Shown one piece after another: positions 41,327 to 64,000 of a stretch of 64,000 bases of DNA. A program made the translations under genes and the position numbers. A model generated the notes under the pieces. That model worked only from the letters and a program-made list of their open reading frames with translations. It was not told the DNA's origin and did no database searches. Within the stretch, counting starts at the first letter, position 1. The number at the start of each line of letters is the position of its first letter. Source of the DNA: Thiobacillus sp. SCUT-2 (GTDB lineage Bacteria > Pseudomonadota > Gammaproteobacteria > Burkholderiales > Thiobacillaceae); NCBI RefSeq assembly GCF_035621355.1, contig NZ_CP141769.1, positions 1,116,001-1,180,000 of the forward strand, given 5' to 3'.

Positions 41327-43125
41327 GCATCCGCGTCCTGCCCGACGTCCTCATCTCGCAGATCGCCGCCGGCGAGGTGGTCGAACGCCCTGCGTCGGCG
41401 TTGAAGGAGATGCTGGAGAACAGTCTCGACGCCGGCGCGACGGAAATCCAGGTCGAGCTCGAGCAGGGCGGCATCAAGCGGATTCGCGTTTCCGACAACG
41501 GCAGCGGCATTCCACGCGACGAACTGGTGCTCGCACTGACGCGCCACGCCACCAGCAAGATCGCGAGTCTTGCCGATCTCGAGCAGGTCGCGAGCCTGGG
41601 TTTCCGCGGCGAGGCCCTGGCCTCGATCGCCGCGATCGCGCGGGTGCAGCTGGTGAGCCGCGGTGCGGGCGATGCGCATGCCTGGGCGATCCAGGCTGAG
41701 GGCGGCCGCCTCGAGGCATCGTCCCCCGCCGCGCGCGGGCAGGGGACGACGATCGACATCCAGGACCTGTTCTTCAACACGCCGGCGCGGCGCAAGTTTC
41801 TGAAAACCGAGGCGACCGAGTACGCGCACTGCGCCGAAACCGTCCGGCGGCTGGCGCTGGCCCATCCGCAGGTCGCGTTCACGCTCGCGCACAACGGCCG
41901 CACGCAGCTGCGCCTCGGCACCGAATCCGCGGTCGCGCGCGTGCGCCACGTACTGGGCGATGCATTCGAGACGAACGCCATCGCCGTCGAGGCGGCGGCG
42001 GGGCCGCTGCGCGTGTCGGGCTGGGTCGTGCGACCCGCCGCCGCGACGGCCAGCCGCGACGGCCAACACATCTTCGTCAATGGCCGCTACGTGCGCGACA
42101 AGCTGATCGTGCATGCGCTGAAGGAAGCCTACCGCGACGTCCTGCACCATCAGCTCAACCCGGCCTACTGCCTGTTCGTCGAATTGCCGCCGGAGGCCGT
42201 CGACGTCAACGTGCACCCGGCCAAGACCGAGATCCGCTTCCGCGACGGCCGTGGGGTGCACCAGTTCCTGTTCCACGCGGTCGAGCGCATGCTGGCCGCG
42301 CCGGTGACGGCGGACAGCGGGCCGGCCGCGGTACCGGCGGCGCGTCCGGCGTGGACGCCGCCGCAGCAGGCGAGCATGCCCTTGCAGGTCGCCGAGGCCA
42401 TGGCACTCTATGCGCCGCTTGCCGCGCACGCGTTGAGTGGCGCGCCGCCTGCGTCGCAAGCGGCAGAACTCGGCGGTCTGGATTCAGTGCGTGCGGTTGC
42501 GACTGTGGCGCAGCCCTTGCCGGCGGCGTGCGAGGGTGACGTGCCGCCGTTGGGCTACGCACTGGGCCAGCTGCACGGGGTCTACGTGCTGGCGCAGAAC
42601 GCCCACGGGCTGGTGCTGGTCGACATGCACGCGGCGCACGAGCGCGTCGTCTACGAGAAGCTCAAGTCCGCGCTCGACGCCCGTGCAGTGCCGGCGCAGA
42701 CGCTGCTGATTCCGGTCGCGCTGACGGTCGATGCGCGCGACGTCGCGGAGATCAGCCCGCATCTCGACGCACTTGCGGAGATCGGCTTCGAGCTGTCGGT
42801 GAGCTCGCCGACTTCGGTTGCGGTGCGGTCGGTGCCATGGCTGTTGAAGGATGCCGACCCCGTCGAACTGACCCGCGCGGTGCTCGCCGAAGTCGCCGAG
42901 TACGGCGTCGGGCGGCTGCTGGCCGAGCGGCGCAATGAACTGCTGGCGACGCTCGCCTGCCACGGCGCGGTGCGCGCCAACCGGCGCCTGACGCTGCCGG
43001 AAATGAACGCGCTGCTGCGCGAGATGGAGGCGACCGAGCGCGCCGCGCAGTGCAACCACGGGCGCCCGACCTGGTTCCAGCTGAGCCTGCGGGAGCTCGA
43101 CGCGATGTTCATGCGCGGCCGCTGA
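41323..43125 (+). CDS. mutL: DNA mismatch repair protein MutL
   Basis: A 600-aa GHKL ATPase (IAAGEVVERPASALKEMLENSLDAG, DNGSGI, GFRGEAL-SIA) with a C-terminal dimerisation domain. The C-terminal region ends CNHGRPTWFQLSLRELD and lacks an obvious DQHAxxER-like intact endonuclease set (it has DMHAAHERVVYE), resembling the MutH-less type as judged from sequence; this point is uncertain. GTG start with GGAGG upstream, overlapping the hemerythrin stop. Confidence 0.95.
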   Translation: MSIRVLPDVLISQIAAGEVVERPASALKEMLENSLDAGATEIQVELEQGGIKRIRVSDNGSGIPRDELVLALTRHATSKIASLADLEQVASLGFRGEALASIAAIARVQLVSRGAGDAHAWAIQAEGGRLEASSPAARGQGTTIDIQDLFFNTPARRKFLKTEATEYAHCAETVRRLALAHPQVAFTLAHNGRTQLRLGTESAVARVRHVLGDAFETNAIAVEAAAGPLRVSGWVVRPAAATASRDGQHIFVNGRYVRDKLIVHALKEAYRDVLHHQLNPAYCLFVELPPEAVDVNVHPAKTEIRFRDGRGVHQFLFHAVERMLAAPVTADSGPAAVPAARPAWTPPQQASMPLQVAEAMALYAPLAAHALSGAPPASQAAELGGLDSVRAVATVAQPLPAACEGDVPPLGYALGQLHGVYVLAQNAHGLVLVDMHAAHERVVYEKLKSALDARAVPAQTLLIPVALTVDARDVAEISPHLDALAEIGFELSVSSPTSVAVRSVPWLLKDADPVELTRAVLAEVAEYGVGRLLAERRNELLATLACHGAVRANRRLTLPEMNALLREMEATERAAQCNHGRPTWFQLSLRELDAMFMRGR

Positions 43126-43142
43126 AGGTCGGTCTCTGCTAG

Positions 43143-43167
43143 AATTCCGAGTTATTTAGTCAGGTAT
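43143..43167 (+). promoter_or_regulatory. IscR-type-1-like motif upstream of the S24-like gene
   Basis: Positions 43143-43167 match the IscR type 1 consensus (ATASYYGACTRWWWYAGTCRRSTAT) at 20 of 25 positions by hand, with a perfect AGTCAGGTAT half. It ends 14 bases before the ATG. A TAGAAT at 43139-43144 could be a -10. The identity of the regulator is inferred from the motif only. Confidence 0.5.
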
Positions 43168-43181
43168 TACCGAGGTCCCCC

Positions 43182-43544
43182 ATGAGCGAATCCTCTCCCC
43201 GCAAGACCATTCCCATCCAGGACATCAACGAGGCAAGCAACTGCGCCGGCTCCGAGCCCTATGCCCTGATGGTGCTGGGCGACTCGATGCTGCCCGAGTT
43301 CGAGGAGGGCGAGATCATCGTCGTCGAACCCTCGGGCCTGGTGAAGGACGGGTCCTATGTCGTTGCCTACGTCAACGACGAGTACATCTTCCGGCAGATC
43401 GTGAAGCGCGACGGCGGCTGGATGCTGAAACCGCTCAATCCGCTGTACGAGAACATCCCCGTCGACGACATCGGCGTCGCCCGGGGCGTGGTCATCATGA
43501 AGAAGCGCCCGGGCAGGCGCAGCGAACAGAAGCGCTACGTGTGA
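43182..43544 (+). CDS. Lone S24/LexA-like peptidase domain, apparently inactive
   Basis: A 120-aa protein equal to the C-terminal half of LexA/UmuD without a DNA-binding domain. The serine motif GDSMLPEFEEGEIIVVEP is intact (Ser35), but the position expected to hold the catalytic lysine reads IFRQI (Arg71), so self-cleavage is doubtful. Basic tail RRSEQKRY. Its function is unknown; the IscR-like motif just upstream and the neighbouring gene with the same motif point to Fe-S or redox control. Confidence 0.72.
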   Translation: MSESSPRKTIPIQDINEASNCAGSEPYALMVLGDSMLPEFEEGEIIVVEPSGLVKDGSYVVAYVNDEYIFRQIVKRDGGWMLKPLNPLYENIPVDDIGVARGVVIMKKRPGRRSEQKRYV

Positions 43545-43628
43545 TTCCGGAAGGGATTGACAAACGGCGAACGGCGTCTCGGTGCCGTAATTCAATTCGT
43601 TTATGAATAAATTAACCCTACTAATAAA

Positions 43629-43660
43629 GTAGTTGACTAATTCACTCAGGTATCTAGACT
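43629..43660 (+). promoter_or_regulatory. Promoter overlapping an IscR-type-1-like operator
   Basis: -35 TTGACT (43633-43638), 16-base spacer, -10 TAGACT (43655-43660). The 25 bases 43629-43653 match the IscR type 1 consensus at 23 positions, and the arrangement (-35 inside the operator) is that of the isc operon promoter. The surrounding 43560-43660 is unusually AT-rich for this chromosome. Confidence 0.68.
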
Positions 43661-43697
43661 GGGATCGTGTCCAACGTTCCCGAGAGGAGAAATGACC

Positions 43698-44153
43698 ATG
43701 AGTGGATTGATCGCAAACTTCCCGTCCGACGGCATCGTGACCGTCAACCGGGTGATTCTGAAGCCGGAGTACACGGTCGACGACCTTCAGGAGCGGGTGG
43801 CGTTCCTGTGCGAGAACGTGAAGACCTACCATTCGGACACCGGCTTCGTCGGCGGCTTCGTCGCATTGAATTCCGGCCAGGTCTCGAACGAAGGCTCGAC
43901 CATCGGCCAGGCCGTCGGAAGCCCGCTGAAAGGCCGGGAAGCGCTGATCGTGACGTTCTGGACCGACTTCGAGAGCCACGAGAAGTCGCACCGTTCGGAA
44001 ACCTTCCAGCCGCTGTTCCGGAGAGCGCTGGAACTGTGCGAGAACGGCAACGAGGAAATCGCCTACGAGATGCTGTGGTCCGGCAAGGCCTACGGCCCGG
44101 AGGAAATCGAGGCCGCACGCAAGGCCAAGGCACATTACGCGCATGCGGCCTGA
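43698..44153 (+). CDS. Small dimeric alpha/beta-barrel-like protein with an HxxxH...E pattern
   Basis: A 151-aa cytoplasmic protein. TFWTDFESHEKSHRSETFQPLFRRA resembles the region of sulfur oxygenase reductase that binds iron; His94, His98 and Glu120 stand where the SOR ligands would be, Cys38 precedes a GFVGGF segment as in SOR. The protein is half the size of SOR, and ABM-type monooxygenases share the fold and sometimes an HE-rich helix, so the match is suggestive only. ATG 43698 is chosen because GAGGAG is 8 bases upstream; ATG 43692 is also in frame. A strong terminator follows. Confidence 0.7.
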   Translation: MSGLIANFPSDGIVTVNRVILKPEYTVDDLQERVAFLCENVKTYHSDTGFVGGFVALNSGQVSNEGSTIGQAVGSPLKGREALIVTFWTDFESHEKSHRSETFQPLFRRALELCENGNEEIAYEMLWSGKAYGPEEIEAARKAKAHYAHAA

Positions 44154-61708: not shown

Positions 61709-61872
61709 GGCGTCTGCGTGACGCCGGGGGCGCTTCGTCGCCCCGCCGGGCGAGTCTGCGCAGCGGCGCTGCGACGCGCGGCGGCGCCATTTGCTACCTG
61801 TTGCACAAACCCTTCTTTATCAGCAGGTTAACAAATGGCAAGCTGAGGCCTTGGCCTCGACTCACTTCTAGC
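61709..61872. other. Boundary segment between core genes and the IetS-like gene
   Basis: Base composition changes from GC-rich to a mixed sequence around 61790. Short features are an imperfect AACCTGC/GCAGGTT pair around 61795-61830 and a GAGGCCTTGGCCTC hairpin at 61845-61858. No integrase or tRNA is present on this side. Confidence 0.45.
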
Positions 61873-64000
61873 TTACGTCCGAAGCGGCAGCGACACTTGA
61901 GGTTCCAAGGCTTGCAGCACAGCGTGTGCCGCTAGGATGTCTTGATGCAACTGGGCATGCTTCGGCGCCTGCACTGTGACAACCAAGGCATAGCGGATGG
62001 AGGGCGTTCCGGAAGATGCAAGACCGCCTGCTTCCCGGGCGTTGTAATGCACATCGAACACGGGTTCAAGCAGGCTACTGCCGTAGTAATTGTGCTCTGC
62101 GTGTAACACGGTTTCCCATTTGCCCAGATCCGCCCGCAACTCCGCCTCGGTCCGAAAATCGGCCGCAGGGAAAAAACTGGCCGACGAAGCATTCTTAGCT
62201 TTGCCCTTAAGCTTGCTACTATTGGGCCGGAAGGTAATGCCCAGGCCGGCCTTCGTATAGGCAGCGGCGTCCTGAGGGTCGACCGGACTAGCGTAGCAGA
62301 ACGTTGCCCGCAAACGCACTTTGCCTTCCAGCTGGAAGGCTGGCAGGGGGATGGGCGCCCGCAGGAATTTGCCGGGACGCAGTTCACCCTGATAGATGAT
62401 TCGGGCTTCCCCTTCACCGCAGGTAATCAGTCGGTTGATGTTGGCCGGCACGCGACCCCAGCCGACGTGATGGACATCGTGCTCCTCCTTCATTTCGCAG
62501 CCATGGATCAAAAGTGTTTTGATGGTCAATGGATGTACGGGATCACCCAGGATGGCACGGATGCCAACAGCCGAACGCAAGGCGAGCGGCGCTGCAAAGC
62601 TGGTTCCCAGGTTGGCGGCCAAGTTCGGCCGCTTACCGGGCGCGGCGACGTGGAAATATTCTTTCGGGGCGCCACCAAATGCCACAACATCCGGCTTGCG
62701 GCGCCCAGGGCTACGGCCAGGGCCTGTAGCGCTGTAGTTTGCACGCTTCCAGTCATCACCGCTCCCGTCAGCTGCGCCTACAGACAAGGCATTCACGCTA
62801 TCGGATGGGACTTGGATACGGTTTAAACCAAGGGCTGAATCTAGAGCTCCATTGTTCCCGACTGCGACGGTCATCAGGGTTTCTCCGTCGCTCAGAATGC
62901 TGTCGATGACAGCTGTCCAAGCATGAACATCCTGATCCTCCACTGGTAGGTCCGGTCCCAGGCTGAGGTTGATAAACTGATATTGGCGGGAAAGCAGCAC
63001 GGTTTCGACGTGACCGAGTGTGCGATACAACTCGTAGGGATCTTCCCCTTCAATTCTGGCATCCAGCACGCGATGATGGTCAACTGGCGCATAGGGGCGT
63101 TCCGCCGTTCCTTCCGGCTCGATCGGCCCGAACAGCAACGCTGACGTGACGCCAAGTCCATGCTCGGTGAAATCGGGTACATCGCTCGCTTCATCGTCAG
63201 CCAGAAAATAGCGGCGGACATACCCATCAAGAACATGCTCTGTCGGCAGGCCGCCATCGAGAATGGCCACCTTGGGTTCGCGGGAAAGTGGCTCGCCGCT
63301 TGGTAGTGAGAACGATACTGCAAGCGGCATGCTGCGGGTGACCGGACGGGCTGCCCGCAAGTGCGGCATCGGCCGAATTACTCGGGTCATAGTGAACTGG
63401 GCCAAGCTTTCGAGGTTAGCAGCGTCGCCTTCCACTGCGATGAAAAGCAGTCGGCCGGCTTCGAATTCGAACTCACCATTGACCTTGAAGCCGCAGTCCT
63501 TGGCGTAGTCGGCGAACATGGCACGAACATCGGAGGCATTGCCCTCTGGGGGTAGATGTAGGCCGACCTCGAAAACATGTCCGATCTCAGCACCCTCAAG
63601 ATGCAGGCGATCGGCCGGTGTCATGGCCACAAAGGTCTCAATGCGGGAGAACTGCTCGGCGACCGGCATTTGTTCATTCAGGCTCCGGGCGAAGGTTGGG
63701 AGATTCCCCAATGCAGCCCGCGTGCCAGCCACGAAAAGTTCCGTGGTTTCCATCTCGGTTGGCGCCTTCTTCTGGGTCTGACGACGCGGCCGGATGCGGC
63801 GGGTACGTGACCCTACCGAGGCCAACCCCGCCTGATCGAGCAGCAGCTTCGGAAAAAAGGACTTCGCCAGGTAGGCCGGGTGCAATACCAGACGGGCCAC
63901 CGCCAGATCGTCGGCGCAGGCCTTCGGTGGAAGGGCCTGGAAAATGCTGTTGGCTGCCTCGATCTCCGGGACGATGATGCGCTTGGCCTCGCCGAGCGTA
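61873..64000 (-). CDS. IetS-like S8 (subtilisin) protease, N-terminus beyond the window
   Basis: An open frame of over 700 codons continuing past the right edge (GTG 63900 is internal; the preceding 33 codons are also open and read EAKRIIVPEIEAANSIFQAL). The S8 triad is Asp in AILDGGLP (about 63258), His in TEHGLGVTS (about 63162) and Ser in GTSFAAP (about 62601); the oxyanion Asn is in AVGNNG. It has no signal peptide visible and a long N-terminal domain, as in IetS of the IetAS defence/plasmid-stability pair. The gene's AT content is higher than its neighbours. Confidence 0.78.
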   Translation of the reverse strand, partial: TLGEAKRIIVPEIEAANSIFQALPPKACADDLAVARLVLHPAYLAKSFFPKLLLDQAGLASVGSRTRRIRPRRQTQKKAPTEMETTELFVAGTRAALGNLPTFARSLNEQMPVAEQFSRIETFVAMTPADRLHLEGAEIGHVFEVGLHLPPEGNASDVRAMFADYAKDCGFKVNGEFEFEAGRLLFIAVEGDAANLESLAQFTMTRVIRPMPHLRAARPVTRSMPLAVSFSLPSGEPLSREPKVAILDGGLPTEHVLDGYVRRYFLADDEASDVPDFTEHGLGVTSALLFGPIEPEGTAERPYAPVDHHRVLDARIEGEDPYELYRTLGHVETVLLSRQYQFINLSLGPDLPVEDQDVHAWTAVIDSILSDGETLMTVAVGNNGALDSALGLNRIQVPSDSVNALSVGAADGSGDDWKRANYSATGPGRSPGRRKPDVVAFGGAPKEYFHVAAPGKRPNLAANLGTSFAAPLALRSAVGIRAILGDPVHPLTIKTLLIHGCEMKEEHDVHHVGWGRVPANINRLITCGEGEARIIYQGELRPGKFLRAPIPLPAFQLEGKVRLRATFCYASPVDPQDAAAYTKAGLGITFRPNSSKLKGKAKNASSASFFPAADFRTEAELRADLGKWETVLHAEHNYYGSSLLEPVFDVHYNAREAGGLASSGTPSIRYALVVTVQAPKHAQLHQDILAAHAVLQALEPQVSLPLRT

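Follow-up and report, generated by a model that had tools for sequence, protein, structure and literature searches.

A divergent IetAS-type ATPase-protease gene pair in a low-GC island of Thiobacillus sp. SCUT-2, with close relatives on Tn3-family transposons

The chromosome of Thiobacillus sp. SCUT-2 carries an intact gene pair, ietA and ietS, predicted to encode an AAA+ ATPase and a subtilisin-type serine protease. Our main reading, to which we give a probability of about 0.68, is that this is an IetAS operon in which IetA would restrain the protease and repress the operon's own transcription, that it acts as an addiction or abortive-defence module, and that it was once the cargo of a transposon. 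IetAS is already known, and the pair is a divergent, intact new member and an ordinary chromosomal example of it. As far as our searches of open-licence PubMed Central go, two things are new: IetAS as co-linear cargo in front of a Tn3-family recombinase and transposase, and the promoter repeats of the clade to which the pair belongs, where earlier reports on IetA regulation are possible.

The ietA and ietS genes

The window is the whole stretch of DNA analysed here, 64,000 nucleotides long (G000:C1:1116001-1180000), from a genome of 3.01 Mb in a single contig. Sequence past its right edge was read in L002 (C1:1174001-1194000); a window coordinate equals the L002 coordinate plus 58000. The pair and its promoter elements are as follows.

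61873..64000 in the window, to 64092 in the window's frame, minus strand: ietS, S8 (subtilisin-type) serine protease, from profiles and the intact active site
64093-65265 in the window's frame, beyond the edge, minus strand: ietA, AAA+ ATPase of 390 aa, from profiles; the start is the GTG common to relatives
65291-65313 in the window's frame, minus strand: direct repeat ATCGCCATAAAC-TTCGCCATAAT, upstream of ietA
65325-65330 in the window's frame, minus strand: TTGACT, a -35-like box upstream of the direct repeat

The window's right edge cuts ietS, and in the whole genome the gene is complete and encodes 739 aa (L002:3873-6092, window frame 61873-64092). A preliminary description of the window, made from its letters, had proposed an IetS-like cytoplasmic protease with an intact S8 triad and no signal peptide, and had expected its partner ATPase upstream, past the right edge. 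The catalytic residues D279, H311, N413 and S498 are all present and are invariant in 99/99 aligned IetS (near-identical copies included), an alignment in which only sequences longer than 690 aa were kept and shorter ones dropped. The PADLOC IetS profile matches at 3e-39, compared with 3.5e-06 for the generic subtilase model of PADLOC, and six IetS models match in all; Pfam Peptidase_S8 is found at 4e-17. The N-terminus, MTTRYLIGRAELLTYPIEAPKKK, read by eye, has no hydrophobic, signal-like stretch, and the predicted IetS model has a pro-domain-like fold at this end. Two profile searches of solved structures gave no IetA- or IetS-named entry among the matches listed.

On the extended contig an AAA ATPase gene lies directly upstream, where it had been expected; the stop codon TAA of ietA abuts the ATG of ietS, with 0 nt between them. 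IetA is matched by PADLOC at 6e-74 and by the Pfam AAA domain at 6.8e-28. Its Walker motifs are intact, and G159, K160, D212, E213, D215, N255, R266 and R267 are invariant in 98/98 IetA (near-identical copies included). The proposals on triad, N-terminus, family and partner thus all held on the extended sequence, and a secreted subtilisin as best match, named in advance as a contrary outcome, was not what the profiles returned. The anti-phage equivalogs of NCBIfam also match most of the length of both proteins, IteA (NF042959) at 1.9e-63 and IteS (NF042956) at 2.8e-30, with scores far under the cut-offs (214.8 of 510 bits and 105.3 of 900 bits, respectively). Because of these scores the pair, judged from its sequence, is of the IetAS kind but of another subfamily than NCBI's curated IteA/IteS equivalogs. 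What the preliminary description had not seen is this divergence, the probable helix-turn-helix (HTH) of IetA, the repeats at the promoter and the carriage of several close relatives by Tn3-family elements.

The two genes occur together in other genomes as well. IetA adjoins IetS, on the upstream side, in 33/34 loci, a count made without the partial or duplicate loci L006, L015, L020, L065, L080-L090, L095 and L096; the exception is L100, in which the contig ends 144 bases before ietS. On viral contigs IetA lies beside IetS in 66/70 loci, and 64 of the 66 are spaced at -17 to +23 nt. Three of the four viral loci that have no IetA begin just upstream of ietS, and the fourth, L126, is a partial ietS match.

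The island around the pair

The pair lies in an island together with other genes.

61718..64000 in the window, to 68575 in the window's frame, no strand: island of 6,858 bp in total, from genus comparison
65579-67099 in the window's frame (L002:7579-9099), minus strand: LA2681-type HEPN gene with intact RX4H motif (RHHLEH), from profiles
67310-68245 in the window's frame, minus strand: NAD-kinase-like gene, an island neighbour outside the pair

An island edge near ietS had been suspected, and the comparison places it: homology to the genus relatives G027 and G008 stops at window position 61717 (L002:3717) and resumes at 68576 (L002:10576). G027 and G008 have 682 and 680 bp, respectively, in place of the 6,858 bp; at this site G017, another relative, carries roughly 2.7 kb. 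The interval of G027 and G008 holds a 174-aa frame that is absent from the window's island, so the island is a replacement and no clean insertion. It is flanked by a conserved 82-aa frame on one side and by an OmpA-family gene on the other. A tRNA as the insertion site was rejected, as none was found in the 36 kb scanned.

Stretches of the same size taken from elsewhere in the window average 0.675 in GC (sd 0.020); the part of ietS inside the window has 0.594, and 0/1195 of the other stretches are as low. This bears out the earlier statement that ietS is less GC-rich than everything before it, though one 1-kb bin, at 43001-44000, is equal to it at 0.594. Low GC extends to about L002:9.5 kb.

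From ietS onwards the island holds ietS, ietA, the HEPN gene and the NAD-kinase-like gene, which is preceded by a truncated SPFH-like start (both within L002:9310-10405). This truncated frame looks like the start of an SPFH protein, in keeping with some Rhizobium plasmids, where the homologue's match coincides with features annotated as sugar kinase and as SPFH domain-containing protein. A direct repeat of 57 bp and 84% (L002:7417-7473 and L002:9311-9365) duplicates the 3' end of the NAD-kinase-like gene around the HEPN gene, which suggests, from the sequence, a scar of earlier recombination. The HEPN gene was rejected as a third component, because it lies beside ietAS in 1/104 loci, the window's own, and the NAD-kinase-like gene was rejected with the same result (1/104); each rests on one query by tblastn at 1e-6 over loci of which many are short. 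The HEPN gene is likely to be a separate RNase defence module.

Relatives and ancestry of the pair

IetS is rare around Thiobacillus. Counting its own genome, it is found in 3/60 genomes of relatives (the other two are 38-39% identical, one of them partial), in 5/398 genomes of the phylum and in 11/399 genomes of the order; the loci L007 and L008 apparently come from G767 and G532, which are thus no independent cases. In the GTDB-220 species collection, 14 loci have IetS relatives of 80-92% identity by best segment, from records of Dechloromonas, Azonexus, Zoogloea, Methyloversatilis, Rhodocyclaceae and Betaproteobacteria. IetS relatives also occur in 46/72,556 plasmid records, every one below 60% identity, in 12/50,697 phage records and in 70 loci of viral contigs. 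The DNA shared with the 14 close loci is limited to the pair and its promoter, at most L002:3873-7332. The rare presence, the low GC and the fact that its nearest relatives belong to other families within the order point to horizontal transfer of the pair into this chromosome, as far as sequence can tell.

Other genes stand near ietAS in more distant loci. Multiubiquitin and/or ThiF genes lie near it in L072:256-2682, L074:233-2665, L099:1253-3300 and L079:9374-10021 (L079 by annotation), which are plasmid or chromosomal loci, and in L100 there is a ThiF match alone; none of the 70 viral loci has ubiquitin-like genes near ietAS. A caspase-family gene, together with partner genes, is found upstream of ietAS in divergent orientation on two plasmids (L070:518-2774 and L071:523-2774).

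Several close relatives are carried by a transposon. In L007 (Dechloromonas), L010 (Rhodocyclaceae), L011 (Azonexus), L018 (Zoogloea) and L097 (the genome G466), a tyrosine recombinase gene begins 17-38 nt behind ietS, and behind it stands a Tn3-family transposase gene. The transposase gene is whole in L007, L011 and L097; L018 has an interrupted one, and in L010 the contig cuts it. Partial recombinases are found in L015 and L016. Pfam detects PF00589 in L007, L011 and L016 and PF01526 in L007 and L018, and calls outside the loci run against Pfam are by similarity. L008, where 826 nt were available, L012-L014, with 4.9-8 kb, and L017, with 7.8 kb, gave no recombinase or transposase match, and L009, L019 and L020 are not assessable; transposon genes are thus present in 7/12 assessable relatives, or 7/10 with L012-L014 counted once. 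A Zoogloea strain apparently has two ietAS copies of the clade, L018 with and L014 without transposon genes.

The ends of these elements were also found. The same 18-bp right end follows tnpA in 4/4 loci that reach that far. In G466 both ends are present, they match at 32/38 positions and delimit 18,221 bp, and no 5-bp target duplication was seen. For the L007 element no left end was found, either in the locus or in the 19 kb beyond it on the upstream side (L254). The relatives belong to the Tn3 family by their transposase, recombinase and inverted repeats; none of these marks was found around the window copy. L002 and L003 have no recombinase or TnpA match, and no TnpA was found in the window's genome in a search that had no positive control. 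Nor did the window and L002 contain transposon ends with up to 11 mismatches in 36, or L002 ends with up to 4 mismatches in 18.

The window copy is nested among transposon-borne copies in a midpoint-rooted tree. It is sister to L007, L008, L010 and L018 (support 0.92); L009 with L097, L011 and L016 branch further out, and the transposon-free L012-L014 furthest of all (supports 0.78-1.0). Because of this nesting, its ancestor was probably the cargo of a Tn3-family transposon that has since been lost.

A candidate operator in front of ietA

IetA probably carries a C-terminal HTH. The C-terminus is HTH-like, with the majority sequence SQRxISxxTGVSRDTIRK, and it can be aligned across 98 IetA. The alignment is looser for the most distant members, and the motif is poorly conserved in L077 and L078, the two that are furthest removed. 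Pfam HTH_29 matches at 0.0018 and 18.8 bits, under its cut-off of 28.1, and the region is helical in the predicted IetA model.

In the window's clade, two copies of TTCGCCATAA spaced 12 bp apart precede ietA, and the first overlaps the likely -10 element. We compared 12 of the 14 clade loci with upstream sequence, omitting L013 and L014, which are 99-100% like L012 over 3.6 kb. With the pattern loosened to fit them, the repeat is present in 12/12 of these loci, and TTGAC is found upstream of ietA in 11/12. The pattern TCGYCAYAANNTTCGYCAYAA occurs in 4/399 genomes of the order, in one copy each and always before ietA; it was written after the clade loci had been seen, and these genome counts test its specificity only. 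The four genomes are those whose IetS is the window's or at least 90% identical to it, and the pattern is absent from the seven other genomes of the order with an IetS match. The reversed pattern gave 0 among the matches listed for the same 399 genomes.

Upstream regions were also compared with shuffled sequences; 95/98 were long enough and 70 of these were distinct. The best repeat lies at the ietA promoter site, at 0.015 or better against shuffles, in 8/10 distinct clade regions, the exceptions being L012, whose best pair is elsewhere, and L016 (0.115). Outside the clade, 2/60 distinct regions reach 0.03 or better, which is about what chance gives. An operator as a feature of the whole family was therefore rejected, and the idea of a putative operator, drawn from sequence comparison, holds for the window's clade only.

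The repeats might instead be an irs-type resolution site of the transposon's tyrosine recombinase. A recombinase gene lies close behind ietS in several relatives. According to the portion of PMC7157771 available to us, resolution sites of TnpI-type elements hold direct repeats and promoters, and toxin-antitoxin (TA) pairs mostly abut the resolvase gene, which is how the thought arises. We consider this unlikely. The window copy, L012-L014 and L017 keep the repeats with no recombinase match nearby. A closely related element of an Azospira plasmid (TnpA 94%, recombinase 88%), which has the same right end, shows no ietA-type repeat within the 15.3 kb that were read, even when 5 mismatches are allowed, and a Variovorax element (TnpA 67%, recombinase 54%) has none in 11.3 kb. 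The repeats travel with ietAS rather than with the transposon. The Azospira element (L256:86-11278) has ribonucleotide reductase genes where its relatives carry ietAS.

How the pair may work

We propose that IetA, as an AAA+ ATPase, would restrain IetS, a cytoplasmic serine protease, and that the C-terminal HTH of IetA would repress the operon by binding at the direct repeats over the promoter. Disturbance of the balance, by loss of the genes or by phage, would free IetS, which would then cleave proteins of the cell and stop growth. The pair would have come by horizontal transfer from an ancestor that was probably Tn3-family cargo, and this copy would have lost the transposon. The putative roles of IetS as toxin and IetA as antitoxin are drawn from sgiAT of Salmonella Genomic Island 1 (SGI1) and TA132/3 of Mycoplasma mycoides, because these systems work in this way in what we have of their reports (PMC5006074, PMC8562856). 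In L017:8001-9533 the ietS match breaks off at residue 451, next to an ietA and promoter repeats that are both undamaged. Such a locus fits the idea that an antitoxin is able to persist after its toxin is lost.

More tentatively, and against the balance of our own judgement, IetA might be at once an antitoxin, an ATP-driven machine and an autorepressor acting on the 12-bp-spaced operator, and the pair a new class of TA passenger in Tn3 elements that shares a transcript with the recombinase, coupling the switching of addiction to that of transposition. If this is true, an autorepressor acting in trans would also explain the plasmid incompatibility in the title of the pTiC58 paper. Against our main reading stand the widely missed NCBIfam equivalog cut-offs, the weak HTH match, the chance-level repeats outside the clade, the SGI1 operon's failure to give post-segregational killing from its own putative promoter, and the searches that found no transposon remnant in the window's island.

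Rings of the FtsH, PAN or p97 type unfold and feed proteins. IetA and IetS might accordingly form a working AAA protease, in which IetA unfolds proteins, for example of phage, and feeds them to IetS, and is no strict antitoxin. The AAA module of IetA belongs to the classic p97/FtsH/PAN type, all 98 IetA have a hydrophobic or aromatic residue at pore-loop position 187 (L 48, Y 38, F 12), and ietA and ietS form a pair almost everywhere that the contig reaches far enough to show it. On the other side, the window's IetA has a leucine in the pore and no aromatic residue, and in SGI1 and mycoplasma the ATPase is the antitoxin and the protease the toxin, as far as the accessible text of PMC5006074 and PMC8562856 goes. 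We regard a feeding machine as possible and on the whole doubtful. The pore-loop leucine as a sign that IetA does not translocate was dropped, since Y or F is found in 50/98 relatives. It is far less probable that the pair is a non-functional relic within a decaying island. Some neighbours in the island are indeed remnants (the duplicated NAD-kinase-like 3' end and the truncated SPFH-like start), and L017 has a broken ietS next to an intact ietA; in the window copy, both frames, the catalytic residues, the abutting junction and the promoter repeats are all intact. The Peptidase_S8 domain would also fit an ordinary secreted or housekeeping subtilisin, a reading that we find scarcely credible, because the best family is IetS, a partner ATPase is present, the N-terminus is not signal-like, and this protein is the sole S8 match in its genome and is shared with so few relatives.

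Relation to known systems

IetAS of the Agrobacterium plasmid pTiC58 (Yamamoto et al., 2009) is reportedly named in its title for plasmid stability and incompatibility. Like it, the window's pair joins an AAA ATPase to an S8 protease, and both genes are matched by the family models that bear its name. Unlike that system, which by its title stabilises a plasmid, the pair is chromosomal, and the likeness is by family models and not by sequence identity.

A parallel in function is sgiAT of SGI1, in which, by the portion of PMC5006074 available, the same two protein families act as antitoxin (ATPase) and toxin (protease), the ATPase gene is transcribed first, and the operon gives no post-segregational killing from its own putative promoter. 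The main text of that paper, as we have it, has 0 matches for HTH, repress or autoregul. Like the transposon-borne relatives, sgiAT adjoins a resolvase gene (PMC9035990, as far as available); unlike them, it lies on an integrative element and not on a Tn3-family transposon. TA132/3, an AAA-ATPase antitoxin with a toxic subtilisin protease, shares the operon order and has no intergenic region, according to the available part of PMC8562856; its host is distant, and it is likened here by description and not by sequence. In a 2023 survey, ietAS is listed as an anti-phage system whose mechanism awaits description (PMC9958689, in the part available). A putative anti-phage role of the window's pair rests on this listing and on the family annotation.

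For Tn3-family elements, the part of PMC7157771 at hand states that most TA passengers lie directly upstream of the resolvase gene. The ietAS relatives do likewise, ahead of tnpA, and TnPosp1 is a co-linear case among the known passengers. The toxins in its table of 39 elements are RelE/ParE, PIN and HEPN types only, with no ATPase-protease pair, and in its two tnpI cases the pair is divergent from the recombinase, unlike in the ietAS relatives. The main text, as available, has 0 matches for 'aaa' and 'protease'.

In summary, the clade offers a defined promoter, a candidate operator and naturally paired loci, one carrying the transposon and the other free of it. Two questions thereby become testable: whether an ATPase antitoxin controls its own transcription, and whether transposons carry an ATPase-protease pair as an addiction module.
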